The translations under genes and the position numbers were made by a program. The notes beneath the pieces were generated by a model, which was not told the origin of the DNA, made no database searches, and saw only the letters and a list, made by a program, of their open reading frames with translations. Shown here in pieces: positions 2,337-60,752 of a stretch of 64,000 bases of DNA. The stretch comes from a virus. The stretch is taken from IMG/VR virus record IMGVR_UViG_3300025108_000020, positions 1 through 64,000 of that record, one strand, 5' to 3'. Each line of letters starts with the position of its first letter. Position 1 is the first letter of the stretch.

Positions 2337-3766
2337 CAGAAAGTACCAAACGGATTAATTTCAGTGAAATCTAGGATACCTTCTGCCTCAACTTCAAACT
2401 CATCATTGAAAGTGGATTTGGTTGTCGTGTCAATTCCACTATGACTTAGAACTTGATACCTGGCTGAAGATGCTGTTCCTGTAATGAATTCACCAGGATA
2501 GAATATGCCATTATTTATTGAGATTTCTAACTTTCTATCATTCTCATTAAATTCTCTCACATATCCTTCAGTCCCAGACAGGGATCCAACCACTCTTTCG
2601 TTGAAGAAGAATGTACCAATTCCAAGAGAAAGTGGGTCTCCGATTGTAACAATAGGTGCTTCCTCATAACCAGAACCAGCGTTAGTCAAGAATATTCTAC
2701 TAATACTATCTCCATCAAGAAAAGAAATTGCAGTTGCTTGTACTTGACCTGCTTTTACACCGACTGTAGCACCTGATGTACCAATGCCAACATCAGAGGG
2801 GTGTTGAATTGTAATAATTGGAGCAGTTACATAATTTGTACCAAGATCTGTAATTCTAATTGATGTGATACCACTGTTTGTAAGAGATGCTGTTGCAGCT
2901 GCACCTACACCAGGACCACCAAATGTAAATGCTGGTGCCTCTGTATATGCAAATCCAGGGTTTTGTAGGACTACTTGATCAACAGAATACAAACCTGATC
3001 TTTCTGTGGTAAATGCGAATGCACCTGCCCTAGAGGAAGTAACACCAGCAGGAGAGGGCTCGATACTAACAGTGGGTGTGGAAGTATAACCATATCCATC
3101 ATCATTTAAGAAAATTTGTTGTAATGCACCTTGGCTGGCAAATGAGTCAACGGTAGCACTAGCTGTGGATCCAATACCTGCAAGAATAACTGTTGTTGTT
3201 TCTCCTTCTTGCATCACTCTTTCATCAACACTAATAACTCCAGTATCGACATAATCATCTTCGTAGCGATAAAGTTCGCATTGAAGTTCGTAAATATAAT
3301 TTTTACCTAACTGATAAAATGGATTCTCAAACTCTACATGCTTAATTTCAAATAACCTTTCACCTAATGGAAAAAATATTAAATCTCCTTCTTTAGGTCT
3401 TTCTCCAAAAACAATATCACTACCAGCGTTTTTTGCGTTGTGGGTTACTACAAAGGGAGCAATAAAATCTTCATACCTCTCCCTAGAAATCGTTAGCGTA
3501 ATTTCATTCTGCAGATTGATACCAAATTTTGTCATGATATCACTGCCCTTAGCATATCCCTCATAGTTATTGAGGTAAGCTTCTAAAATATATGCATCAT
3601 TAAACTTTGACGATTGTACTTCTCCAAGCACATCGTCAGTGACAATCATTTTTCTAGGAATATAATAACAATCAAGTCCAAACATTTTTAGATGTTCGTC
3701 TATTAACTCCTGAATGAGATTTTGCTCGTTAGGAGATCCTTGAAGAAAGAAGGGATTTAACGCCAT
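2336..3766 (-). CDS. 14: Neck protein gp14-like with inserted beta repeats
   Basis: 476 aa, nearly twice T4 gp14 (256 aa). The N-terminal 180 residues and the C-terminal end (EGILDFTEINPFG) look like gp14, a neck component that joins the filled head to the tail with gp13. Between about residues 190 and 440 is an insertion built from four GxGY-type repeats (near 223, 267, 307 and 362), each a Gly-rich turn followed by an aPxVxI strand. Similar units occur in the giant baseplate and fibre proteins of this window. The gene overlaps gp13 and gp15 by 1 nt. Confidence 0.9.
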   Translation of the reverse strand: MALNPFFLQGSPNEQNLIQELIDEHLKMFGLDCYYIPRKMIVTDDVLGEVQSSKFNDAYILEAYLNNYEGYAKGSDIMTKFGINLQNEITLTISRERYEDFIAPFVVTHNAKNAGSDIVFGERPKEGDLIFFPLGERLFEIKHVEFENPFYQLGKNYIYELQCELYRYEDDYVDTGVISVDERVMQEGETTTVILAGIGSTASATVDSFASQGALQQIFLNDDGYGYTSTPTVSIEPSPAGVTSSRAGAFAFTTERSGLYSVDQVVLQNPGFAYTEAPAFTFGGPGVGAAATASLTNSGITSIRITDLGTNYVTAPIITIQHPSDVGIGTSGATVGVKAGQVQATAISFLDGDSISRIFLTNAGSGYEEAPIVTIGDPLSLGIGTFFFNERVVGSLSGTEGYVREFNENDRKLEISINNGIFYPGEFITGTASSARYQVLSHSGIDTTTKSTFNDEFEVEAEGILDFTEINPFGTF

Positions 3767-4587
3767 TATCCAATAAGATCAAGAGGTGGGACTTCATATG
3801 TGGAGAGCATCCTATCTTCGATGCGTTGTAATTCCATTACACCATCCTCATAAATTTGTCTGCCATTCAGTTCAGTGCCTCCTGGAAGTTTAACTCCTTG
3901 AAACTTGATGAGGTTTTGACCCCACTGTTTTTTAACAAGAGATGTAAAATACTTTTTAAGGAAAGAATCATTATAAACACCTGCATAATTTGCAGGATCC
4001 ATAATTCTTTGGCAATCAATAATTATGTATGTTCCTTCCGTTACAGATCCCCAATCGACATCGAGATACAAACGATTATTTCTCTTATTATATCTAATCT
4101 GTTTATTTGTTGTCATTAAGAAATCAATATCTTCAAGATATGTTTTAGTCATCGCATAACTGAGAAGACCACTATATCCAAGATTGAAAGCTACATCATT
4201 TAAAAACAACTGATATTTGAAACTAAACATGTTGTTGGAGATGAAGCTAGAATCAAACAAAAGTACTTTCTCAATTCCAATAACTGAATCTGGGACAGTC
4301 AGATAATTTGTATTCTCCTCAAAGTCTCCAGATGTTGTAGTAGAAGTAGTGATACCAAGAGATTCGCTAGCACCCCTTGCTCGGCCTCTTTTGATGTCAT
4401 CTGCTGTGACCTTATACTTGAGATAAACTCTTTCTACGCCATCAAAATGACGCTCTTGAAATAATTGAAGAGCGTCATCTAAATTATCATCTACCTGCTC
4501 ATCAGCTACATTTATTTCTAAGACAGGATACCCAAGTTGTCTAAGAGCATAATCCTTGAGTTCCTGTCTAGTAGTTGGTTTTGCCAT
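3766..4587 (-). CDS. 13: Neck protein gp13-like
   Basis: 273 aa, against 309 aa for T4 gp13. The opening MAKPTTRQELKDYALRQLGY followed by EINVADEQVDDNLDDALQLF is the characteristic N-terminus of T4-like gp13. gp13 and gp14 form the neck that stabilises the packaged head and receives the tail. The gene follows the large fibre gene with a 1-nt overlap and precedes gp14, matching T4 order (wac-13-14-15-16). Confidence 0.93.
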   Translation of the reverse strand: MAKPTTRQELKDYALRQLGYPVLEINVADEQVDDNLDDALQLFQERHFDGVERVYLKYKVTADDIKRGRARGASESLGITTSTTTSGDFEENTNYLTVPDSVIGIEKVLLFDSSFISNNMFSFKYQLFLNDVAFNLGYSGLLSYAMTKTYLEDIDFLMTTNKQIRYNKRNNRLYLDVDWGSVTEGTYIIIDCQRIMDPANYAGVYNDSFLKKYFTSLVKKQWGQNLIKFQGVKLPGGTELNGRQIYEDGVMELQRIEDRMLSTYEVPPLDLIG

Positions 4588-47633: not shown

Positions 47634-49049
47634 TCATGACTTCTTTTTGGTCCGCTTCTTAAAGTGTCCATCCATCATGGAATCTAACACAATTTCACCA
47701 AATTTCTCACTAGGTTCCCACAATGGTGACATGAGAGGATATTTATCTGCATATGGAGCACCTAAACCATATACTGCTTGACAGAAACTTTGGTAGGGAC
47801 CTAACATTCTATATGGTTCATCTGACTCATCTGTCATTCTTTGACGCAGATAAGTTTTATCCTCTGATTGTGCTTGATGTCTAAAATAATCAAGTCTAAT
47901 GTTCTCTTCAACAGGAACTTCTTCCATCTTCTCATATACTAATCTACGCTCAGTTGAGTGTAGATCTTTATCCTCAAGCAACCTACATGCCGTTTCTCTA
48001 GCGTTAATCCAGAAATCAGATTGACGATACTGTGTACCAAATTGTAGATAGAATGCCATAAAAGCAGCAGCATCGATCTGGTGATCTCTCCACCTATCTT
48101 CAATTTCTAGACGCTGTAAGTTATTGCATGGACTATCATTATCACCAAATATAAATTCTCCTAATGCTTCGCCAACATCAGTCTCAACATAACTATTAAA
48201 CCCAATTAAATCATCGTTCATACCTAGAGCACGACCACATCTTGCATACATTTTATTACTATGAATGCAATACTCAGATACTTTATGATCAGAATCAGTC
48301 TTCTTATATGAGCAATGCTTTTTAACAGCGCAATGCTTATTAAAATCTTCTACTGCCTCTTCTTCAGTTGTAATCTCATGATCATATGAATAGATCCATG
48401 TTTGTGCATCTTGTGTAGGAATACCAGTCAAATATCCATGCTCACATGCAATAAATGCGCTGTAGTCCCAGTCACCAGGAATCTTACGATTAACAGTTAA
48501 TTTTGTATCAGATGGATTGAATAGTGCATCTTTAAATGAAGTCTTATCCCACAGTCCACCTCTTACACAGTCAACGACGAAATCAAACTCCTCACCGTCG
48601 ATATATGCACTATCCTCATCAAATGTAACATCTTTAACTCTCTTATCAACTAAGTTAAGGTTAAAGTGTTGATTTCGTACATTATCCCAAAAGAAGTCAA
48701 CAAACTTACCTTCATCAATATGCATTGATACCTCAGTAGGATCAAACATAACGAAGAAGTTTTTATCAGTACGATTACCAAACCCAATAAACTTTAACCC
48801 AAGTTTTTGAGTCGCATCAAATCTTTTATGAAAGTCGAGTGTACTAATTGTGGTGTTGGTAGCAATAACAGTAAGCCAAAGTGTATTGACTTGCACTCCG
48901 AAGTTGTCAATTTTATGCGAGCAATCCCGTATCCATGTAATTTCGTCATCCTGAAAAATGCTATCTGAATTATCTCTACGAGCAATGAGTTGTGTAACAG
49001 TCGCTACAGCATCTGCACCTGCACCGATAACAGCGATTTTCCTACTCAT
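47634..49049 (-). CDS. FAD-dependent halogenase-like protein (PrnA family)
   Basis: 471 aa. Begins with a Rossmann FAD motif (AVIGAGADAVATV) and has the length and layout of the tryptophan halogenase family, reported in many cyanophages. I see ITWIRDCSHKIDNFGVQVNT in the correct region and DFVVDCVRGGLWDKT in the second half. The classic GWxWxIP motif is not found; WIYSYDHEIT lies roughly there. Activity is therefore uncertain. A chlorinating or other flavin-dependent role on a small metabolite is conceivable. Confidence 0.75.
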   Translation of the reverse strand: MSRKIAVIGAGADAVATVTQLIARRDNSDSIFQDDEITWIRDCSHKIDNFGVQVNTLWLTVIATNTTISTLDFHKRFDATQKLGLKFIGFGNRTDKNFFVMFDPTEVSMHIDEGKFVDFFWDNVRNQHFNLNLVDKRVKDVTFDEDSAYIDGEEFDFVVDCVRGGLWDKTSFKDALFNPSDTKLTVNRKIPGDWDYSAFIACEHGYLTGIPTQDAQTWIYSYDHEITTEEEAVEDFNKHCAVKKHCSYKKTDSDHKVSEYCIHSNKMYARCGRALGMNDDLIGFNSYVETDVGEALGEFIFGDNDSPCNNLQRLEIEDRWRDHQIDAAAFMAFYLQFGTQYRQSDFWINARETACRLLEDKDLHSTERRLVYEKMEEVPVEENIRLDYFRHQAQSEDKTYLRQRMTDESDEPYRMLGPYQSFCQAVYGLGAPYADKYPLMSPLWEPSEKFGEIVLDSMMDGHFKKRTKKKS

Positions 49050-49271: not shown

Positions 49272-50450
49272 CTACTTGGTTGCCCAGGTCTTGTCAACCG
49301 TAATGTTGGCAAGACGAAACTCATCGTCAACAAACTTCATCATAGACTTATCGTTGTGGACAACATAACCCTCTGGATTTGTAGGAGTTTGACCGATGAA
49401 TGTCTTGATAGTACCGACTTTGTTGAGTTGATCGATAACCATCTTCTTAGCACTACGAATAGAAATATATGCAGCAACTAGAAAATAGAACTCACGACGG
49501 TGATGTGCAATAAACATAAGACCATCAGATTCCATGTTGTCATACTTTTTCTGAGTGGCAGCAGTCTTCTTCTTACCTTTCTCAGTTTGAATAGCAACTC
49601 TGTAGAATTGTGCAAACTCAGCAACCATTGTCTTTGCATTGACAATGCCACGACCAGCACGAATGCGCTGATTGAAGAACTTCTTAATGAGAAGGTGCAT
49701 CATTAGATTAGATCTACCTTGACCTTGTAAGATGTCAAGAAACTTAGAAGATTGCTTTAGCGCACCTTGTGCGCGATTGATGTGAGCATTGAAAGTATAC
49801 AGATCTCCTTGATCAAACAAAGAAGAACCAGTGGCATCAATAAAATTCGCACTGGCAACAAAAACATCTTCAGTAGAATGATACTTAGGGGCTTTCTTGA
49901 GAGGTACAACTTCCGCAGTCTGTAGAGTATCGCCCTTGTATTTTGTATGAAATACGATTCCAAGTTTGGAAAGATGAACGACAGAACCTGTACGGGAATT
50001 ACGATCAACAGCGTAAGTAATAGTATTAGGAGTGAAACAAATAACTCTGTTTCCACCGATAATGCCGCTTCTCTTATCTTCCGCAGTGAATAATAAGTCA
50101 CCTTGAACGATACCTGAGATATTGAGTTGAGGAAGATACTGCAAGCAATCTTTGAGTTTAGATGCAAGTTGACCAGTATAGAAACGATCTACATCAGTGT
50201 CATCAAAACAGATCTTTGGATTGACTTTGTTGAATACTGATTTAGTACCAACAAAGAAACGACCACTGACAGGTTCTGTGCCACAAATGATAGCTGGAGC
50301 ACCATCCCACTTCGTGGTGATATTTAAGTCACTAGACTTGCCAGACAACATGTCACTGAACTGACGCAAAAATGTGATGACATTGAAACCACCAGCGGTG
50401 CCGCTGTTCAGGATCTCGTCTTCTAGGTGCTCAAGGTGTGTGTTCTTCAT
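49272..50450 (-). CDS. Ligase-like nucleotidyltransferase
   Basis: 392 aa. Residues 47-50 are KWDG in the setting TTKWDGAPAIICG, matching motif I KxDG of DNA/RNA ligases and capping enzymes. Near the C-terminus EGYVVH (360-365) matches motif IV and MMKFV (Lys372) motif V. The ~310-residue gap between motifs I and IV, compared with about 150-200 in typical ligases, suggests an inserted domain. It may be a polynucleotide ligase, end-healing enzyme or protein-modifying nucleotidyltransferase. TATAAT ends 6 nt before the ATG. Confidence 0.75.
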   Translation of the reverse strand: MKNTHLEHLEDEILNSGTAGGFNVITFLRQFSDMLSGKSSDLNITTKWDGAPAIICGTEPVSGRFFVGTKSVFNKVNPKICFDDTDVDRFYTGQLASKLKDCLQYLPQLNISGIVQGDLLFTAEDKRSGIIGGNRVICFTPNTITYAVDRNSRTGSVVHLSKLGIVFHTKYKGDTLQTAEVVPLKKAPKYHSTEDVFVASANFIDATGSSLFDQGDLYTFNAHINRAQGALKQSSKFLDILQGQGRSNLMMHLLIKKFFNQRIRAGRGIVNAKTMVAEFAQFYRVAIQTEKGKKKTAATQKKYDNMESDGLMFIAHHRREFYFLVAAYISIRSAKKMVIDQLNKVGTIKTFIGQTPTNPEGYVVHNDKSMMKFVDDEFRLANITVDKTWATK

Positions 50451-50502: not shown

Positions 50503-51105
50503 TCATCTGAACCCAGGACCGTTTGCCCAGACCACTAGAGAGCGTCTAGTGCCCCTTGTGACAGGTGTCACACGATGAACCACATAGCTAGGAAACATCG
50601 TAACTATGCCTCTATCATCTGCTGCTGTTTGAATGACACCATTATGTAACTGCAACTCACCACCATCATAATCATCAGGATCAGATAGTTGCACCGACAT
50701 ACTTAACTTTCTGGGTGGCATTTCACCCAGAACCATATTATCTACATGCCAACGATAAAATGAATCATTATCATTGTAAACAGTATATTGTAGATGTTCA
50801 TGAAATCCATGAATATCAAATCTCCAATGCATACCATTCATACATCTAAGAATATTACCCAGTCTGTCATATATCCACTCAGTATCATCATTCAACTCAA
50901 TCCATGAGTTCTTTGACTTTCTAATACTTGTTTCTATTTCGTGCGATTCTTCATCCTGCCCTACAACTGAGTCATGAGGATTTAATGACTCTCCATAAGT
51001 AATAATCTTATCACATTCTTCAGATGTAAATCCATCTTCCCAAGACTCATATAATATTTCCCCCGTACCAAAGTTTGGTGAGGGAGATATGCGATAAATT
51101 GACAT
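50503..51105 (-). CDS. 2OG-Fe(II) dioxygenase, prolyl-4-hydroxylase-like
   Basis: 200 aa, cytosolic. It has a double-stranded beta-helix with the complete iron and co-substrate set: HxD (His120, Asp122 in RWHVDN), distal His177 (VVHRV) and Arg187/188 (GTRRSLVVW). FYRWHVDNM, RKLSMSVQLSDPDDYDGGEL and FPSYVVHRVTPV are typical of the PiuC/prolyl-4-hydroxylase group. It starts 7 nt after the collagen-like gene stop, so that protein is its natural candidate substrate. Binding or activity is not shown. Confidence 0.85.
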   Translation of the reverse strand: MSIYRISPSPNFGTGEILYESWEDGFTSEECDKIITYGESLNPHDSVVGQDEESHEIETSIRKSKNSWIELNDDTEWIYDRLGNILRCMNGMHWRFDIHGFHEHLQYTVYNDNDSFYRWHVDNMVLGEMPPRKLSMSVQLSDPDDYDGGELQLHNGVIQTAADDRGIVTMFPSYVVHRVTPVTRGTRRSLVVWANGPGFR

Positions 51106-51112
51106 AATAAAA

Positions 51113-52753
51113 TCAGTAAACTACTTTAATATCCCCATTATTAGGAATCACTTCATATTTGCTACCCTTAACAGCGCGACCACCTTGACCACCAGCAGCG
51201 CCACCAAATGCAGGTTGACCCCAATCACCACCGGATCCACCGGGTTGACCGGGTTGGCCACCTTGTCCAGGAGTACCAGCTCTTCCAGGGGTTCCAGGTT
51301 GACCGGGTTGACCAGGTTGACCGCTACCACCGGGTGTTCCACGACCACCACGACCACCAGGGGTTCCAGGAGTTCCAGGAGTACCAGCACCACATGATGC
51401 ACCACCACCACGGCCACCAGGAGTTCCACTAGATCCAGGAGATCCACTACCACCAGGTTGACCGCCTCCGCCGCCACCACCTGATCCACCGGGACCGCCA
51501 CCACCACCAGGGGTGCCAGGTTGTCCAGGAGTGCCAGGTTGTCCAGTGATATTGCCCGTCTTATAGTTCCAACCGCGACCGGGAGCACCTACCCCACGAT
51601 AGCCGCCGCCACCGCCAGTTCCATTGTATCCTGAAGGACCACCTGAACCACCGCCACCACCTGAACCACCGCCGCCGCCACCGCCGCCGGATCCACCGCC
51701 ACCGCCTGATCCACCGCCACCACCGGATCCACCGGAGCAATGATGCCGATGTCTCATACTGTTTCTTGCCTGAAATGTATTTCTGCTCTGATAACCTTGC
51801 CTCTCCTGTTTTGGTCCCCTTCTACTACGGGGCCAACCACCATACCGTTTTCTTCTAGATCTTCTATCTCTGTTACTATTTCTATTTTGCTTACCGGATC
51901 TTTGCTGATACCCATGTCTCTGCTGACCGCCACTACCGGGTGATCCAGGACTACCATTTCCACCACGACCACCGGGTGATCCACTACCACCTGAACCACC
52001 GGGTGATCCAGGACTACCAGGAGATCCAGAAGATGCACCGGATCCATTAGATCCAGGAGATCCGTTAGATCCAGTTTTGCCACCACCACCACCAGCATAA
52101 ATGCGAGAGTCTGATCCTTCGCATTCTACAAATACTTTACGAATTGCAGGAGCACCAGGATTAGATATTTCAATCGCATGACCGCCAGGTTGTCCCTGTG
52201 CATTTCCCCCGGCAGAATAAACACCATATGATGGTGGTGCATTATTTACATAGATGTTTAGATTTGATGATGCATCATTAGCAACAACAGCAGGAGATGC
52301 AACACTGGTACTAACAATTCTACCTTTTATCCTTAGATACTTTGATATATTTCTGTTAAGATTTCCATTCCATTGTGCATTGATACTAGGAGTTGATGGA
52401 CTATTTAAATCAGTAACACTAAAGTTTTCTTCTTCAGAGTTAGCTGCCTGCTCAATTACATATTCATCAATAATACCTCTAAGATCTTGAGGTGTGATAG
52501 CTCCACTCGTACCAACACCTACATTTTCAGTTGCATCCAACACATATGGTAGATGAGGAGAAGATGATGTGGCATATTTGCCTGTATTGAAATCATATGG
52601 TGCATCAAGATCTGTGACTCGATGCATCTCAGATGCAGAAATTGAGGCGGAAGTATTACCTACTGCCGCCCTAACATCACCATAAGAAATCTGTGTTCCT
52701 GGTGTACCTGTGAGGAGTTGTTGAGTTTTTGTGCTCCAATCTCCGTAAGCCAT
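51113..52753 (-). CDS. Collagen-like, glycine-rich fibre protein
   Basis: 546 aa. A folded N-terminal head (about 1-225) is followed by Gly-X-Y stretches (GSPGSPGSPGG; GQPGTPGQPGTPGG; GTPGTPGTPGG) where Pro repeatedly occupies the Y position before Gly. Around residues 275-342 is a strongly basic insert, then SGGGGGSGGGGG-type tracts. The C-terminal ~30 residues are a short cap (SKYEVIPNNGDIKVV). Collagen-like fibres occur in phage tails, and polyglycine islands occur in T-even gp38 adhesins, so a distal fibre or adhesin is likely. It lies 7 bp upstream of the dioxygenase gene. Confidence 0.85.
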   Translation of the reverse strand: MAYGDWSTKTQQLLTGTPGTQISYGDVRAAVGNTSASISASEMHRVTDLDAPYDFNTGKYATSSSPHLPYVLDATENVGVGTSGAITPQDLRGIIDEYVIEQAANSEEENFSVTDLNSPSTPSINAQWNGNLNRNISKYLRIKGRIVSTSVASPAVVANDASSNLNIYVNNAPPSYGVYSAGGNAQGQPGGHAIEISNPGAPAIRKVFVECEGSDSRIYAGGGGGKTGSNGSPGSNGSGASSGSPGSPGSPGGSGGSGSPGGRGGNGSPGSPGSGGQQRHGYQQRSGKQNRNSNRDRRSRRKRYGGWPRSRRGPKQERQGYQSRNTFQARNSMRHRHHCSGGSGGGGGSGGGGGSGGGGGGGGSGGGGGSGGPSGYNGTGGGGGYRGVGAPGRGWNYKTGNITGQPGTPGQPGTPGGGGGPGGSGGGGGGGQPGGSGSPGSSGTPGGRGGGASCGAGTPGTPGTPGGRGGRGTPGGSGQPGQPGQPGTPGRAGTPGQGGQPGQPGGSGGDWGQPAFGGAAGGQGGRAVKGSKYEVIPNNGDIKVVY

Positions 52754-52763
52754 ATATCAATCC

Positions 52764-55490
52764 TTATGAAAGCGTGAATGTTACTGAACCAATACCCGCA
52801 ACCGAGATATAAATTTTAGTCGGATCTGATGCGTCCTGCTCAATATTTAGGGCTGAAGTTCCAGATGAAACATATGATCTGAAGATGCTAGCATCTGTTG
52901 CACTCGAACCTTGAGTGGTTGCATATTGGTGCTTATTATATGCCTTGTTATAGGTCATATGTGCAGTACCAAAACCAACAGGAGTTACACCGAACTCAGC
53001 ACCAGGTTGAACAGCATTGTCAACATTAGCCAGGATTTTAGCAGAACGATCAGCATCGCTATCAACAATACCACCAATATATCCAATTTCTTGAATATAT
53101 TCAATAGGATCGTGATACTCACTTAGAACTGTTTTAATACCAACTGCATCAGGACCATTACCTTGGAAAAATAGGTTGTTAACATCAGAATTAGCATCAA
53201 ACCAAAGACATCCAGCTTTAGATCCAACTGGTGTTCCATCATCTGTATTGCAGAGAATAAGACTACCAACAGATTGTGATATATCAATTGTCGAAGAAGG
53301 GGATAATGTATCGAATCCAACTCTAACAAAACTCCCGGTATCAGTACCACCAAGACCAGTATGATTACTGTAGAACTTGGCATTTTTATAAACTTCTACG
53401 GCATTAGAGTCATTTAGACTAACCTTAGTACCGATACCAACACCACCCTCAAAGATTGATTCTCCACCAACAAATTCCTGAGATGCATTTCTTCTCAGTC
53501 CAACATAGAAATCAACATCATCTTGACGCTTACCTGATGTAGTACCAATACCAATACCACCATATCCAATTACAGCAATTTCAGCATTGTCATCCATGCT
53601 GATTCCTTCTTCTACTCTAATACCACCAAGTGTAGTATTAAATCCAACCTTCTTAATTAGTAAGTTAGTGTTATTTCCGTCAGTAATGTCAAGGTCAGCA
53701 ACAGATGTAACACCGACAGATCCAATCATGAACTGACAACTAACCGCTCCTCCTACAACAACACTTGTACCACTAATTTCTCCAGTACCACCATCTAACC
53801 GAATAGATCCAAATGTACTAATACCACCACCATTATAAACAAATGTACTCTGAAGAGTCAAAGACTCTGCGAAAAGTGATGTTGTAGTAATAATACCACT
53901 CAAGTTAGCAAATACTGTACCAGATGCAGAAACTTGTGTTGATAGATCCCCAAAGACTAAGGTATCTGTAAGAATTCTACATGTGCCACCAATATTGACT
54001 TGCTTGAATGTTGCAGAGTCTCCACCAGTTTGAGTAATATCCCCGGTAATTGTTGTGTCATCAAGAGTTGCACTAGATCCTGGTACACAAGAGACAATGC
54101 CAAGTACAACTAACTCAGTAGCAGTAACATCAGAAATATTTACAGATCCGCCAAATGTACCACCGATTGAAAGATCACCACCAATAGTAACATCACCACC
54201 AAATGTACCATCTCCTGAGAAATCAGCACCACCAATAACACCCAATCCCCTACCAAGTGCAGAGGATGTACTACCTACACCAACAAAATTGGATACGATT
54301 ACCTCACCACCAAATGTAGATATGCCAGTGTTTCTAATAAAGATGCTGTTAATTCCAAGAGAATCAATCTGATCAACACTAATATCAGGTACGCCAGTTA
54401 ATCCTTGTGCCAAACCTGCGACACCAGTAATATCACCGATAACATCGCCAATGAATCCACCAGCAGCGCCAACCGAACCGCTAAATGTACCTGTTCCGAC
54501 CACATCGAGATCATAATCGGGGTCAACTCTAGATTTACCAACACCAATCTTACCTTCACTAGTAACAACTACACGAGGCTTATTCTTAATAGCATCTGGA
54601 TCTAAATCATCTTGCCCCCAGAACTCAACTTGTCCGATAGGGGTATTACCTACACCAGTTACGGCACCGTTGAAAAGAATTGCTTGTCTTGGAATAGCAC
54701 CACTAGTTTCAATAAACCTAATGCCATGACGACTGTCTGCGTTAGATACAGTTCCAATGAAAGTAATACTATTCTCATCATTAGTGAATGTCAATCCACG
54801 ATCAGTGCCAATCATGGCACCTGATGCCATATTTAATCCACCAACAAATGAACCGATACCAGTCAGTTCAATATTACCACTACCACTGACAGTTTGAACG
54901 CCAACAATATCACCAACCAGGTTGATGTTACCTTGCTGTGCATTACCAGTAAGTGTAATATTTTTTGCACTCAGTCCTTCAAATGTACCAACACCACTAA
55001 TAGCATCAACTCCAACAAGATCACCAACAGCAAAAGATGCCTGTGGGAATGTTACAGATACACCAACAGGTCTAAATGCATATATTGTTGATCCTACTCC
55101 AGGTGTATCATTATCCCATACAGATGTTGGAAGGTTGGTTAATTGAGATCCATCACCCTCAAACTTGACAGCTCTTACTGTACCCCCAGTGGATATAGTA
55201 ACACCCGTTGTTCCTACACCAACTTGAAATACTGCTTCAGGTACTGTTGTTCCAATTCCAACTGAATATCCTACAGCAACATTAACATTGCCATAATGTG
55301 TTTGATATCCAATTACATTGACATCTCTAAAGTTAGCTTGATTTTCTACAATCAAGTTACCCCGAATATCAAGTTCCTCTCTAGGAATAGTCGTGCCGAT
55401 TCCGACTAGACCATTACTAGAGATTAGATCATCTGCATCAACCTGAATGCCATCTCTAAAGTTGATGATTGTCTTGTAATTATTAGGCAT
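52764..55490 (-). CDS. 908-aa tail fibre protein
   Basis: Starts MPNNYKTIINFRDGIQVDAD, with SSNGLVGIGTTIPREELDIR, a trimeric-fibre-like head used by several proteins here. The body is beta-rich and consists of VGIGTT and similar segments. The C-terminus (about 820-908) has little repeat. There is no S74 chaperone. A GATAAATA late promoter is 29 nt upstream. It probably forms a fibre arm near the collagen-like protein; gp34-37 identity is not clear. Confidence 0.85.
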   Translation of the reverse strand: MPNNYKTIINFRDGIQVDADDLISSNGLVGIGTTIPREELDIRGNLIVENQANFRDVNVIGYQTHYGNVNVAVGYSVGIGTTVPEAVFQVGVGTTGVTISTGGTVRAVKFEGDGSQLTNLPTSVWDNDTPGVGSTIYAFRPVGVSVTFPQASFAVGDLVGVDAISGVGTFEGLSAKNITLTGNAQQGNINLVGDIVGVQTVSGSGNIELTGIGSFVGGLNMASGAMIGTDRGLTFTNDENSITFIGTVSNADSRHGIRFIETSGAIPRQAILFNGAVTGVGNTPIGQVEFWGQDDLDPDAIKNKPRVVVTSEGKIGVGKSRVDPDYDLDVVGTGTFSGSVGAAGGFIGDVIGDITGVAGLAQGLTGVPDISVDQIDSLGINSIFIRNTGISTFGGEVIVSNFVGVGSTSSALGRGLGVIGGADFSGDGTFGGDVTIGGDLSIGGTFGGSVNISDVTATELVVLGIVSCVPGSSATLDDTTITGDITQTGGDSATFKQVNIGGTCRILTDTLVFGDLSTQVSASGTVFANLSGIITTTSLFAESLTLQSTFVYNGGGISTFGSIRLDGGTGEISGTSVVVGGAVSCQFMIGSVGVTSVADLDITDGNNTNLLIKKVGFNTTLGGIRVEEGISMDDNAEIAVIGYGGIGIGTTSGKRQDDVDFYVGLRRNASQEFVGGESIFEGGVGIGTKVSLNDSNAVEVYKNAKFYSNHTGLGGTDTGSFVRVGFDTLSPSSTIDISQSVGSLILCNTDDGTPVGSKAGCLWFDANSDVNNLFFQGNGPDAVGIKTVLSEYHDPIEYIQEIGYIGGIVDSDADRSAKILANVDNAVQPGAEFGVTPVGFGTAHMTYNKAYNKHQYATTQGSSATDASIFRSYVSSGTSALNIEQDASDPTKIYISVAGIGSVTFTLS

Positions 55491-55517: not shown

Positions 55518-58500
55518 TTATTTATCCTTTAGTTCATCAACCTGTGAACTCAGGTCTTTGACTGCTTCAATAAGGAGAGGAATTAGTTTGTTATAGTGGA
55601 CACCTTTAGTGCCATCAGGTTTGGTAGATACTGCCTCAGGGAGAACTTTTTCTACATCTTGAGCGATAACGCCAACATCGTGACCTGTATAGCTCTTGTT
55701 ACCTTCCTTCCAATCGTATTCAGTACCACGAATCTGCATAACCTTAGCGAGAGGATTATCAAGTGTGGAAACATTTTCCTTCATAGCAAGGTCAGATGTC
55801 TGACCATAGAAAGCAACAATGTCATCACATACATGGAGTGGACCACCACAATATGTAAATCCTGCACCACTCATGAATACATCACCAGAGAATGTGGTGA
55901 AACCATTGAAGTTAACCTGCTTCTCAAATGTTACAGATGCTGTGTACCTAGTATCAGTTGCGATAGCAACAGCGAATCCAGTTGCAGCATTAAGAACAAG
56001 ATCACCAGATCCAGCAACTGTTCTAATTTCTGTCTGTTGAGTACCAACACCAACCAGAACATTGTTTAACTTAGCACCATTCGGGAAGTTTCCAACAATT
56101 TCAAGACTTCCACCAAGTTCAACAGTACCACTAGTAATTAAGTCATCAGTGAAGTTAACATCGTTGGAGAATGTGACAGGACCATCAAACTGAGATAGGA
56201 TATTCTGTTGAGGACCACCTTCAACAATGATTCTTTGTCTAACAATAACTTCATCAAATACAACAGAGTTACTAGATGCAGATTCACCTGTTACAGTAGG
56301 AATAGGAATACCGAAGGATGATTCTTCACCACTAGAAGAAGAGATTCTCTTGTTACCAATGTAGAAGTCACCTTCATTATTCAGACCAGTATATACAATT
56401 GCACCTGCTGATCTTTCTTGTGCCTGTGACAAATACTCTTCATCATCAGTCAGTGTTCTGTTCTGTACTTGGGGAAGACCTGTTGAATAGTTACCAGGAC
56501 CATATCCAAGATATTCAAATGTGTGTCCAGATGCACGAAGAATCGATGGACGACGCATTTCAATAGCTAAAGGATCGACTTTTCTGATCAATGATCCTAC
56601 ATAATGTTCTGCCGGTAGTGTACCAAGCGCACCTCGAATAACACGAAGACCATCATTACCACCACCAATCAAACCTTTTTCAGATACTCTCATGATCTCA
56701 GCATCAACCTCAACATAATCACCAAGTTGGAATCTTAAATCAGTACCAATACCAGCATTGGGAAGTTGTAGTCTAAGTGTTGTTGATGTTGCATCTAGTG
56801 CATCTTTAGCAGTTGCATGCTCGCCACCATATAGATTGGTATATCTCGATCCAATAGCTTCACTAAGTGGAACTGTCTGATTATTACCATTGAATGCAGT
56901 TTTATACAGTCTATATCCAGCACTATAATTGATATCATTTACTGTTGTAGTAGTAAATGTGTTAATACCTGCAACTGTATTAACCGTAAATTCTCCAAGA
57001 TTGTTGCTACTAGCATCTACAATCTTGAATCTAGATCCTTTACGGAGTCCGTGAGGATAAGATGTTGTGACAGTTGTCAATCCTAATGTGCTATCAAAAT
57101 GAGTTGATGCTAGAGAGACAGAAGGTGTAACTCTGTAAGCATATTGACCTTCAATAACAATAGGATCGCCAGATGTTACTGCAATAGCAATACTATTCTT
57201 ATCTGGTACACTAGTAATTCGGAATAATCCATCACTAGTTGTGCCAATACCAGTAATTGATACTACATCACCAATACATGATGAAATACCAGAAGTGGGA
57301 ACACCAATAGAAGATCCGGGATAATTCTCAATTGTTAATGTTTCTCCACCAGAGAAACCAGAACCAGGAGCAAATACTTCAAATCCAGTAATGGTAGTAG
57401 AACCAACACCTACAGTAACTGTAGCTGTGGCACCATTCCAAACACTACCATTTAGTAGTCTTATATTATGTTGTGTAGTTACAGCATATCCCGTAGAAGA
57501 TACCAAATTCTCGTGAATCTTAAGTCCACCTAAATCATGTTGGTTTTCAAAGGTAACTGTACAGACACCAGCAGAAATACCAGTAACACTGGATACTGCA
57601 TAACCAACATTAAATGTAGTTAAGAACTTATCAACAGTTTCTCTGGTCAAAGAGTTCTTAAGATCATTTACATCAACTTTACCCAAAGGTGAGCGTCTTG
57701 CAAATGATTTTGCAGCTGGTGGGTTAATTAGAACATTATCTCTATCCTGTTGTGGATAGTAAAAAGTAACATTCTGCTCATATTTCTTAGGAGTAAACTC
57801 CTGAGGTGGTGAATAGTCAGCAGAAAGAAGTTCTAAGATGTAAACACCATCCTCCTGTCCAGCGAGATATTTTTCAACAACGGTACTACGATATACTGAG
57901 AAGTTTTTCTTATTATTGTTAATTGCAAATCTAGGCAGGAATAAATTTCTGCTGTTGACAGTAGAGACAAAATTACCAGTGTTTCTTTCTACACCACCAT
58001 TGTCAGTATTGCCATAATTAAATTGATATGCATCAATTAATCCACTAACAGTAAAATATCCATTGTATCCTTTGTTAGCAAGTCCACCAGTATTATTAGA
58101 GTCTTGAACATTCTCTACGAAGATGATATCTCCAACCTCAACCATGTGAGGTAATTCAGTTCTAACAGTAACAACAGATCCTGTTTCACTGATATCAGCA
58201 ATAAACTGATGATTTCTCTTAAAGTTGTTATCGTCAAGAGAAATTGTAGTTGATGACGGATCACTAGTCTTAGCAAATCCAGTGAGGCTAGAGTTTTGGA
58301 TGATGAAACCATTTACAGGGTCTCTAGAGTTTCCTGCCTCTTTAGGAATAACATATCTTACCTTATACAACTTATCTTCAATACTTCTCTTATCTTCAAA
58401 TCTTCTGATGAAACCAATGTTAGTTCCAGCTCCAGCGTCTAAATTGATATTTGTTTGAATCTGAGGATAGATTGTATTACCATCCTCTACATGCAAGAAC

Positions 58501-60752
58501 CATTGTTCCTGGTTAATATCCCATTGAATTGGATGACCAATATCACCAGTTTGCTTATCAGATACTGTACTTTGAACTCTTAATGATGAACCACCAAATA
58601 ATTCAATGGGGATACCATTAATAGCATTGGAGAATGTAGTTGCTACTTTTAGTTCGGTTGGAGAATCTACGATAGCATAATATATTCTATTAAATTGAAG
58701 ACCTTCTGGGAGATCACCATCATCACTGAAGATTCTAATCTTCTCACCTGTTACCAAACCAATAGCAGTATTGGTCATTGCAAACTGACTATTTGGAACA
58801 GTTAGACTGCTATTTTTAGACCCAGTTTGATCACCAAGGATTGCTGTCGCAACACCAGACAGAACATTCTCTGACATACGAACATCAGCATTATATTCTG
58901 TACCACCAATAGAGACATATAATTTTTCTGTATTATTGGCACCAATTCTAAAACCCTGAGAGAGTGATAGAGGTGGTTCATCCTGACGATCAAACCCGAA
59001 GATATACAGGTGACTGGATAAACCAACATTTTTGGTCTTACTTACATCTAACTGGTAGAAACTTACAGTATCAATTTTAGATGCTGATGTATCTACATGC
59101 TGAGGTGTGGTGATATGTGTAATATATCCTTGATCATCTCTTGGGAATGCTGCATCTCTAAATCCATCTGCTAATAGAGCAAATTGACCAAAGTTAGAGT
59201 TTGAGTTAGTAATAGATGCGTCAGCACCACTTTCACCAACAAAGTGAGCATTGTAACCAATAGCAAAAACAGAAACGACTTGAACAACAGCGTTTTCTGA
59301 GATCTTGATATGAGATTGTTCCCATCCTTGTCTATAAACTGCACCAGAGTCTAGGTGATAAACAGTGGTGGCATCAGTAGATGAAGATTCTGCTGAAAGC
59401 GTAGATCCAGATACTTTTTGATATGCAATACCTTCGTAGAGTCTAGATTGTGAGTTGTACTTAACAAATGCACGGTCATCTTTTTGTAGACTAATTCCAG
59501 TGAATTGAGCCACAACCATTGAACGGAAACCAGTAGCTTTACTACCATCCGTATGCATCCCATTCATGCCAAAGACAGAACGCAATGAGATATTAAAGAT
59601 ATATGGAGATGCGCCAGTTACCGTATCAGATTCAATAGTAACAACAGCACTTGTAATGTTAGAAGGTGTTGCTGGTAAATTATTTGGAAAGGTTGCAAGG
59701 CTATATGTAAATGTAGTAGCATCTACAATAGATTGAACAATTGTTGAGATATTGTATTGTGATACATTTACACCACTAATCTTAATAGGAGTACCGGCAC
59801 TTAATCCGTGCTCCAGTTGTGTCGTAACAGTGATCTGAGATGTAGGACTTAAACCATCACCAGAGATGATACTTGCAATCTCTAGAGGGTCAGTACCAAG
59901 AGCACCAACGATCTCATTTTCTTGACGAACTGCTTCAAAGTCACCTTGATTTTCAGGCCATTCGTATGAAATAGCACGACCAGATGCTTCTTGGAAAGCA
60001 TATGTCAGCTTGTAATAATACATGCTGAGGTCAGTGATACCATAACCTTTGACATCATTCTTACCATCAGCATACTCAAAACAAGTAAGTTTGTGGTGAG
60101 AAAATGCTGGAAATGATCTATTGTCGTCATTAAATTGCTGGTGATCAGTAAATACTAATCGATCACCCACTCCATCGAAGAAAGAGAATTGCCAGAAGTA
60201 ACAGTTACCAGTAATTCTGAAAATACTACTTGCAGGAACATCATCATCTGTAGGATTAGGTACATACAGAGGACGAAGTTTAGTCTTTCTAAGATCAAGT
60301 CCAACAACGGAAGTACCACGAGGTACAATTACACCACCGTTGACGGAGTTGAATCTATATAATTGATTGTTTTCTACGGTTAGATCAAATTCACTTGTCA
60401 ATGACAAAGAAAATTCAGTTGTGCCTAATGTTTCTGCACCGATTGGAGATACGCCAACCGCCCTAGTCGGATCACTGGGATCTTTTTTAATAGCAAAACC
60501 AGGACGATTGTCGATGAAGTGATCACCGGGAAACAAGAGAATAGTTGTCTTGTCAGTAATATCGTTATCGAATCCAGTTTGATACGAGAATCGTGCAGAT
60601 TCTAATAATGCTCGCTGAATAGTTTTGAAGGGTTTTGTTAAGGAGTTACCCTGGTTCGTGATACTATCAGTGGCATCAAGATCGTTAGGGTTAACATAAA
60701 GAATTTTACCTTCAGTATTCTTGATGAAATTCTCTAGCTTATTAAGTGGCAT
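55518..60752 (-). CDS. 1744-aa tail fibre with C-terminal S74 chaperone
   Basis: Begins MPLNKLENFIKNTEGKILYV, with a beta-helix-type GKILYVNPNDLDATD...KPFKTIQRALL segment comparable to the one in the 2260-aa protein. The body is beta-rich. The C-terminal ~90 residues (from about 1655) read SDLAMKENVSTLDNPLAKV, then GTEYDWKEG, DVGVIAQDVEKVLPEAV and YNKLIPLLIEAV, a typical peptidase_S74 intramolecular chaperone that trimerises and self-cleaves. The Ser and Lys of the dyad are present. The role is host receptor binding. A late promoter lies immediately upstream. Confidence 0.92.
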   Translation of the reverse strand: MPLNKLENFIKNTEGKILYVNPNDLDATDSITNQGNSLTKPFKTIQRALLESARFSYQTGFDNDITDKTTILLFPGDHFIDNRPGFAIKKDPSDPTRAVGVSPIGAETLGTTEFSLSLTSEFDLTVENNQLYRFNSVNGGVIVPRGTSVVGLDLRKTKLRPLYVPNPTDDDVPASSIFRITGNCYFWQFSFFDGVGDRLVFTDHQQFNDDNRSFPAFSHHKLTCFEYADGKNDVKGYGITDLSMYYYKLTYAFQEASGRAISYEWPENQGDFEAVRQENEIVGALGTDPLEIASIISGDGLSPTSQITVTTQLEHGLSAGTPIKISGVNVSQYNISTIVQSIVDATTFTYSLATFPNNLPATPSNITSAVVTIESDTVTGASPYIFNISLRSVFGMNGMHTDGSKATGFRSMVVAQFTGISLQKDDRAFVKYNSQSRLYEGIAYQKVSGSTLSAESSSTDATTVYHLDSGAVYRQGWEQSHIKISENAVVQVVSVFAIGYNAHFVGESGADASITNSNSNFGQFALLADGFRDAAFPRDDQGYITHITTPQHVDTSASKIDTVSFYQLDVSKTKNVGLSSHLYIFGFDRQDEPPLSLSQGFRIGANNTEKLYVSIGGTEYNADVRMSENVLSGVATAILGDQTGSKNSSLTVPNSQFAMTNTAIGLVTGEKIRIFSDDGDLPEGLQFNRIYYAIVDSPTELKVATTFSNAINGIPIELFGGSSLRVQSTVSDKQTGDIGHPIQWDINQEQWFLHVEDGNTIYPQIQTNINLDAGAGTNIGFIRRFEDKRSIEDKLYKVRYVIPKEAGNSRDPVNGFIIQNSSLTGFAKTSDPSSTTISLDDNNFKRNHQFIADISETGSVVTVRTELPHMVEVGDIIFVENVQDSNNTGGLANKGYNGYFTVSGLIDAYQFNYGNTDNGGVERNTGNFVSTVNSRNLFLPRFAINNNKKNFSVYRSTVVEKYLAGQEDGVYILELLSADYSPPQEFTPKKYEQNVTFYYPQQDRDNVLINPPAAKSFARRSPLGKVDVNDLKNSLTRETVDKFLTTFNVGYAVSSVTGISAGVCTVTFENQHDLGGLKIHENLVSSTGYAVTTQHNIRLLNGSVWNGATATVTVGVGSTTITGFEVFAPGSGFSGGETLTIENYPGSSIGVPTSGISSCIGDVVSITGIGTTSDGLFRITSVPDKNSIAIAVTSGDPIVIEGQYAYRVTPSVSLASTHFDSTLGLTTVTTSYPHGLRKGSRFKIVDASSNNLGEFTVNTVAGINTFTTTTVNDINYSAGYRLYKTAFNGNNQTVPLSEAIGSRYTNLYGGEHATAKDALDATSTTLRLQLPNAGIGTDLRFQLGDYVEVDAEIMRVSEKGLIGGGNDGLRVIRGALGTLPAEHYVGSLIRKVDPLAIEMRRPSILRASGHTFEYLGYGPGNYSTGLPQVQNRTLTDDEEYLSQAQERSAGAIVYTGLNNEGDFYIGNKRISSSSGEESSFGIPIPTVTGESASSNSVVFDEVIVRQRIIVEGGPQQNILSQFDGPVTFSNDVNFTDDLITSGTVELGGSLEIVGNFPNGAKLNNVLVGVGTQQTEIRTVAGSGDLVLNAATGFAVAIATDTRYTASVTFEKQVNFNGFTTFSGDVFMSGAGFTYCGGPLHVCDDIVAFYGQTSDLAMKENVSTLDNPLAKVMQIRGTEYDWKEGNKSYTGHDVGVIAQDVEKVLPEAVSTKPDGTKGVHYNKLIPLLIEAVKDLSSQVDELKDK
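55519..55526 (-). promoter_or_regulatory. T4-type late promoter
   Basis: GATAAATA (one mismatch), overlapping the stop of the 1744-aa gene and 29 nt upstream of the 908-aa fibre gene. Confidence 0.55.

Follow-up and report, generated by a model that had tools for sequence, protein, structure and literature searches.

Glycine-rich adhesins of the gp38 type are, where solved, built as a polyglycine-II sandwich (PMC12892980), and packed glycine-rich lattices have been described for gp38 of phages PP01 and S16 and for gp24 of cyanophage Pam3 (PMC12892980, PMC9608196; for these and all other papers cited here, what we relate comes from their accessible parts). Other phage proteins made of Gly-X-Y repeats and annotated as tail fibres, the collagen-like EPclP, favour proline in the X position, a preference attributed to a lack of prolyl hydroxylases (PMC3368898). 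Among bacteria, the prolyl 4-hydroxylase (P4H) of Bacillus anthracis hydroxylates (PPG)n peptides (PMC8968730). The many 2-oxoglutarate (2OG)-Fe(II) oxygenases of cyanophages have been proposed to act in nitrogen metabolism or DNA repair (PMC3037559, PMC2984593). The literature on collagen-like or glycine-rich phage fibres and prolyl hydroxylases yielded no pair of the two in titles and abstracts, subscription journals being mostly outside the coverage. Here we describe a candidate for such a pair, a glycine-rich protein and an oxygenase encoded at positions 50503-52753 of a 64,000-nucleotide stretch of DNA (the window), which represents bases 1-64000 of the 112306-base virus record IMGVR_UViG_3300025108_000020 of IMG/VR. 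This record has matches at the DNA level to T4-like cyanophages, and its source is probably an uncultured T4-like phage of marine cyanobacteria.

The locus and its proposed function

The two genes lie on the minus strand, the stop of the first and the start of the second being separated by the 7 bp 51106-51112, the distance given in a preliminary description of this DNA. They comprise the following features, with the evidence for each in brackets.

51113..52753, minus strand: glycine-rich protein of 546 aa, probably an adhesin (open reading frame, ORF; 25 IMG/VR relatives; a relative in S-SRM01 named 'adhesin tip complex')
52094..52753, minus strand: N-terminal part of the adhesin, aa 1-220, which defines the family (conserved in 18 aligned sequences)
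51116..52093, minus strand: glycine-rich part of the adhesin, aa 221-546, with the proposed substrate sites (134/326 Gly, 27 G-x-P-G)
51740..51925, minus strand: Arg/Gln-rich segment within the glycine-rich part, about aa 277-338 (in frame, similar pattern in relatives)
50503..51105, minus strand: 2OG-Fe(II) oxygenase of 200 aa, prolyl-hydroxylase-like (PF13640, phrog_61, alignment, model)

The reading that we favour, at a probability of about 0.57, is that the long tail fibre is tipped by a gp38-type adhesin, the product of the first gene, and that the second gene encodes a dedicated prolyl hydroxylase acting on the prolines of the adhesin's G-x-Pro-Gly (GxPG) motifs. We pair enzyme and substrate in this way because the adjacency of the two genes is conserved, because x-Pro-Gly content varies together with the presence of the enzyme, and because related enzymes accompany unrelated glycine-rich proteins. 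The oxygenase would use Fe(II), O2 and 2OG to hydroxylate these prolines in the nascent or assembling adhesin; the place of the enzyme gene right behind that of the adhesin would fit modification before or during assembly. Hydroxyproline would then make polyproline/polyglycine-II strands stiffer and give the surface of the tip additional hydroxyls, and the modified tip may differ in stability or in binding, with stiffness, hydration and receptor contact as candidate benefits.

A conserved gene pair

Searching IMG/VR with the N-terminal part of the adhesin (residues 1-220) gave 25 loci, corresponding to 23 distinct adhesins (some of them only a few residues apart) with identities down to 56%, and in 25/25 an oxygenase ORF on the same strand follows after 3-9 bp. 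In the glycine-rich part of all 23 distinct adhesins GxP occurs 24-50 times against 1-6 for GPx. We call this family, or clade, the home family. A search with the oxygenase found 31 loci. Fifteen have enzymes at 66-100% identity, with the adhesin upstream in 13, the other two (L004, L010) being cut upstream. When identity drops to 39-42% (L018-L024, several of which are copies), an unrelated glycine-rich protein with 20-26 GxPG precedes the enzyme in 7/7. The remaining nine (L025-L033) have mixed neighbours, and in eight of them no glycine-rich ORF is found directly upstream of the matched enzyme (L025-L031 and L028 cut). One home pair stands on a contig of a metagenome-assembled genome of Rhodobiaceae (L556), probably a phage contig binned with the bacterium.

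Two biochemically unrelated genes hitch-hiking as a fibre cassette would also remain neighbours. Fibre modules are, as a matter of general knowledge, exchanged as units, and many of the phage regions that we examined have an oxygenase close to fibre or structural genes. Yet the enzyme is absent beside the proline-poor adhesins of a sister clade and enriched beside GxP, not GPx, repeats (both described below), and we give such hitch-hiking very little credence.

Position of the prolines

The complete adhesin has 33 G-x-P. Its residues 221-546 contain 134 Gly and 32 Pro, arranged as 30 GxP against 3 GP, and as 27 GxPG, with the proline mostly in T/S/Q-P-G, against 2 GPxG (binomial p=1.6e-6 for the 27:2 asymmetry). 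In 5000 shuffles of the residues of this part, where GxPG and GPxG both average 5.4, none attained the observed number of GxPG, GxP or PG. Where the Gly-X-Y (GXY) phase holds, proline is nearly confined to Y, the position that the preliminary description had given for it. EPclP proteins differ in having their proline in X (PMC3368898), whereas the window protein has it in Y with an enzyme present.

Such a protein may be thought of as a true collagen module, that is, a trimeric triple helix whose Y-prolines the enzyme would hydroxylate, thereby raising its melting point. The almost exclusive Y position of proline where the phase persists would fit, as would the Pfam Collagen matches of four unrelated proteins that accompany related enzymes; the profile of the adhesin family also scores collagens among the sequences of the Protein Data Bank (PDB), a composition-driven result that we do not use as evidence. 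However, the longest strict GXY runs have 17, 16, 12 and 11 triplets, many of which are GGG or GGS, the phase is broken, and the non-GXY segments are retained across relatives. The window protein has no Pfam match at E 0.001, Collagen (PF01391) included, while its named relative and its weak fold matches are gp38-type adhesins. We consider a triple helix unlikely for these reasons. The word 'collagen-like' used in the preliminary description applies to composition and short runs, and of the fibre hydroxylation module that it proposed, the pairing of enzyme and substrate (adjacency, co-variation, unrelated partners) is retained and the collagen triple helix is not.

Residues 1-220 form an ordinary conserved region, and many of the glycine positions of the remainder are invariant among the 18 aligned sequences. 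A tblastn search with the entire glycine-rich protein, with the BLAST low-complexity filter on, gave no matches. The Arg/Gln-rich segment (aa 277-338; 51740-51925) could have been taken for a frameshift error, an explanation that we rejected, the segment being in frame in relatives; its +1 reading, when searched, gave nothing significant (best E 1). Across relatives the segment is variable yet patterned, with QxR repeats, and it may be an exposed, variable, receptor-binding loop.

A probable fibre-tip adhesin

The only relative found in the phage collection is gp053 of S-SRM01, annotated 'adhesin tip complex' (two records, one phage), with 33% identity over 80% of the query (E 4e-3); it has a similar N-terminal region and a glycine-rich end. 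An AlphaFold2 model of the adhesin, made from 18 sequences, has a mean pLDDT of 46, with 85 residues at 70-90, and when it was compared by Foldseek with 350,542 PDB chains exactly 2 matched, both being chains of the PP01 gp38 receptor-binding domain. Because of this annotated relative, these fold matches and the glycine-rich lattices of solved adhesins, we interpret the protein as a probable gp38-type fibre-tip adhesin in preference to a collagen, and it probably forms the tip of the tail fibre; its place in the virion and a polyglycine-II fold would follow from that likeness. As in S16 and PP01, the glycine-rich domain contains variable segments and fibre genes lie upstream. Unlike those gp38 proteins, to which it is likened from a predicted model, it is rich in x-Pro-Gly motifs, and the gene directly after its own encodes an oxygenase.

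The oxygenase

The second gene encodes, as the preliminary description had also recognized, a complete 2OG-Fe(II) dioxygenase. Its match to PF13640 (53.1 bits) is above the curated cut-off of 27, and it also matches phrog_61. In 22 aligned sequences H120, D122 and R187 are invariant and H177 is conserved in at least 90%; from knowledge of the family, we take the two histidines and the aspartate to be the Fe ligands and R187 to bind 2OG. A model with pLDDT 85 has, as far as a model can tell, the beta-helix fold of prolyl hydroxylases: its closest match is the Pseudomonas putida prolyl hydroxylase 4iw3 (Z 20.2, rmsd 2.9, 178 residues), followed by PHD2 (6yw3; Z 19.8, rmsd 3.0, 180 residues), vCPH of PBCV-1 (5c5t; Z 19.1, rmsd 2.5, 167 residues), an algal P4H (3gze; Z 18.8, rmsd 3.3, 169 residues) and PiuC (9qn4; Z 17.9, rmsd 3.2, 162 residues), Z scores within 1 of each other being taken as tied.

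The substrate cannot be read from a shared fold. In collagen P4Hs the 2OG-binding position is occupied by Lys, and in PHD2 by Arg. We do not file the window enzyme as a collagen P4H, because it carries Arg187 instead of Lys there, and in this it differs from vCPH and the B. anthracis enzyme, as it does in belonging to a tailed phage and in being gene-paired with a probable receptor-binding tip. The PiuC/PKHD hydroxylases (3dkq, 9ghl) are its best sequence-profile hits and, in the alignments shown, have Arg at the same place; their partner and context are different, and the best score against the NCBIfam PKHD-type equivalog models is 57.3 bits, for a cut-off of 143.

The oxygenase could have another target, a host protein such as EF-Tu or a different phage protein, and be merely co-expressed with late genes. 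The best fold match, the P. putida enzyme, was solved together with EF-Tu, and in the phage collection 2OG oxygenases, several per phage, occur close to tail genes with no GxP-rich protein beside them. Against such a target stand the pairing with one and the same adhesin in 25/25 loci, the co-variation with x-Pro-Gly content and the repeated pairing with unrelated glycine-rich proteins, which lead us to regard it as improbable. A role in metabolism, where consumption of 2OG would tune nitrogen signalling, or in DNA repair has the backing of earlier proposals, the former by Sullivan in 2010 (PMC3037559) and the latter relayed for phage Syn9 in a review of the same year (PMC2984593), again going by the accessible parts of both. 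It leaves the linkage to x-Pro-Gly-rich adhesins unexplained, the closest folds are those of protein prolyl hydroxylases, and we hold such a role to be highly improbable.

The association beyond the home family

Two mirrored DNA patterns, (G-[ST]-P)x3 and (G-P-[ST])x3, were scanned, each giving at least 120 stretches. Filtering for an in-frame run, a Gly content of no less than 15%, 10 or more motifs and a 4-fold bias left 22 GxP-run and 79 GPx-run proteins. A PF13640 enzyme lies within 3 kb of 17/22 of the former and 8/79 of the latter (p=2e-9) and, once the home family is removed, of 6/11 against 8/79 (p=0.0014). Two home-family loci (L236, L250) are counted here although Pfam missed their enzyme, which our own hidden Markov model (HMM) found, their positions being entered roughly by hand. 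With Pfam alone the enzyme is in 17/22 records at any distance and in 15/22 within 3 kb (p=1.5e-7), the 6/11 being unaffected. As a check for false members, all 7 proteins that our HMM (three rounds of building, starting with A2) found in the GPx set proved to be among the 12 Pfam-positive records. The PF13640 family search omitted even the enzyme of the window, which was found by a profile of its relatives, so that misses are not absences. In L149 (1-6900) an ORF truncated by the end of the locus encodes at least 2299 aa and contains 373 GxPG and 0 GPxG; a PF13640 oxygenase lies some 2.7 kb away.

The converse search, with a profile of 22 enzymes, was analysed for the best 80 of 595 loci, a glycine-rich ORF being one of at least 100 aa with more than 20% Gly within 4 kb. 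There is such an ORF in 64/80 loci (directly upstream of the enzyme in 17/80) and one with at least 5 GxPG in 43/80. Omitting the 4 home-family loci leaves 60/76 and 39/76, respectively; ten loci (L065-L074) are near-identical, and collapsing the 80 into 71 distinct enzyme C-termini leaves 55 and 34. As a control for location, 20 stretches (370,924 bp) from 15 of the same records, placed away from listed PF13640 sites, were tiled as 37 windows of 8.6 kb: glycine-rich ORFs were found in 0/37 and ORFs with at least 5 GxPG in 0/37, a single glycine-rich ORF of the control DNA (158 aa, end of L542, 0 GxPG) lying outside the tiled windows. In 19 long records the enzyme loci gave 14/19 and 8/19. In bacterial genomes (best 80 of 143 loci) an ORF with more than 20% Gly was present in 17/80, many in high-GC DNA, and one with at least 5 GxPG in 4/80.

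Related enzymes also pair with proteins that are more collagen-like, since four unrelated partners match Pfam Collagen; in L075, L076 and L094 enzymes at 42-46% identity are directly downstream of such Collagen-positive proteins. In L066 a 238-aa phrog_7084 protein (3285-4001) stands between a glycine-rich, Collagen-positive protein and the oxygenase, and L064-L091 have ORFs resembling it, phrog_7084 itself having been scanned in L066. Two different 2OG oxygenases in tandem are seen beside glycine-rich proteins in L094 (3992-5178, PF13640 twice) and in L131 (3372-4534, PF13759 and an enzyme of the profile family), and perhaps they divide residues or positions between them.

The sister clade

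Adhesins of the S-SRM01 type were found at 42 IMG/VR loci. They have 0-8 GxPG, and their glycine-rich part is mostly 169-187 aa long, against about 320-440 aa in the home clade. No oxygenase is adjacent to the adhesin in any of the 42 (0/42; in L402, L404 and L421 the adhesin itself is truncated), and in 2/42 one lies at least 1.7 kb away. In 16/42 (within L380-L421) a tryptophan-halogenase-like gene lies no more than about 320 bp from the adhesin, and in S-SRM01 itself gp052 adjoins the gp38-like gp053 in this way (L059:6418-8999). The WxWxIP motif is present in 14/16 of these genes, one being cut and one lacking it. The S-SRM01 enzyme has weak, below-cut-off NCBIfam matches to the protein-maturing flavoenzymes QhpG, LodB and GoxB. 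Once the adhesins are clustered, tryptophans in their glycine-rich half are more numerous where the halogenase-like gene is present (7, 7, 2, 2, 2, 8, 6, 4 and 8) than where it is not (3, 5, 3, 1, 1, 1, 1, 1, 1, 6 and 4; p=0.017, with relatedness uncorrected, and after dropping cut adhesins, halogenase-less loci with less than 1.6 kb upstream, and L401, whose halogenase-like gene lacks the motif and whose adhesin has 5 Trp).

Points against the proposed pairing

To be sure, a number of observations weigh against our reading, and hydroxylation of the adhesin by the oxygenase is, on sequence grounds, a prediction that we hold as the most likely one. A PF13640 enzyme is also within 3 kb of 8/79 GPx-run proteins, none was found in the records of three GxP-rich proteins (L190, L227, L242), and for a fourth (L243) one lies at a distance of 32 kb. 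An unbiased GXY scan (at least 120 stretches giving 110 new loci, earlier loci left out, of which 108 with an in-frame run of at least 10 triplets were used) found PF13640 in 4/50, 4/50 and 2/8 records of its samples and revealed no link: 1/8 proteins dominated by Y-proline (at least 3, and more than in X) against 9/100 others (p=0.55). Strong Y-bias is almost absent from that sample and extreme only in L470 (1 X, 35 Y), the positive one. The location controls do not come from tail-fibre regions, and shared location may explain part of the 64/80 signal. In the phage collection, 14 regions of 358 matching records (11 named isolates, 2 single-cell marine virus records, L644 and L646, and one seawater phage, L643) showed no glycine-rich ORF within 5 kb that exceeded 5 GxPG, the maximum being one ORF with 5 in S-CAM8, and ORFs above 20% Gly were present in 5/14. 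The adhesin-oxygenase pair is present in none of these 14 regions.

The nearest solved sequences of the oxygenase are PKHD/PiuC proteins and then vCPH, not collagen hydroxylases. The record has two more PF13640 matches (64057, 105563), with no GxPG-rich ORF outside the adhesin, so that the family must have other jobs too. The fold matches to gp38 are weak (E 0.015 and 0.057), and the model that gave them has low confidence (pLDDT 46). Finally, the contrast with the S-SRM01 clade is a single clade-level event, and many loci are near-duplicates.

Neighbouring genes

The transcription order on the minus strand is S74 fibre protein, tail protein, glycine-rich protein, oxygenase, DUF6267 protein and halogenase-like flavoprotein. 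The immediately upstream Peptidase_S74 and tail proteins provide the gene context of a gp38-type adhesin.

55518..60752, minus strand: 1744-aa fibre protein with a C-terminal Peptidase_S74 chaperone domain (PF13884, 56.7 bits)
52764..55490, minus strand: 908-aa tail protein upstream of the adhesin (phrog_3269, E 1.1e-17)
49272..50450, minus strand: 392-aa DUF6267 protein, next downstream of the oxygenase (PF19782, E 1.2e-115)
47634..49049, minus strand: tryptophan-halogenase-like flavoprotein without WxWxIP (PF04820 below cut-off, 19.3 against 21 bits; phrog_2928, E 5.4e-16)

Judged by its motifs, this last protein is probably not a canonical halogenase, because WxWxIP is absent both from it and from the home-clade copies listed (0/35 halogenase-like ORFs, from 24/25 loci, some of them cut).

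Meaning for phage adhesion

A broader and tentative idea, which we think possible and somewhat doubtful, is that some aquatic phages tailor their receptor-binding fibre tips post-translationally, using oxygenases with x-Pro-Gly-rich adhesins and, in the sister clade, halogenase-like flavoenzymes with tryptophan-rich adhesin loops. If so, there would be a chemical route to variation in adhesion, beyond the genetic one, and phage 2OG oxygenases and viral halogenases would have natural substrates. The window protein would further be an exception to the printed rule, as far as the accessible part of its source goes, that phage and bacterial collagen-like proteins have no Y-proline for want of prolyl hydroxylases (PMC3368898). 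A conserved, gene-paired candidate substrate makes the role of cyanophage 2OG-Fe(II) oxygenases directly testable, and, if our reading is true, this phage chemically matures the tip by which it recognizes its host.

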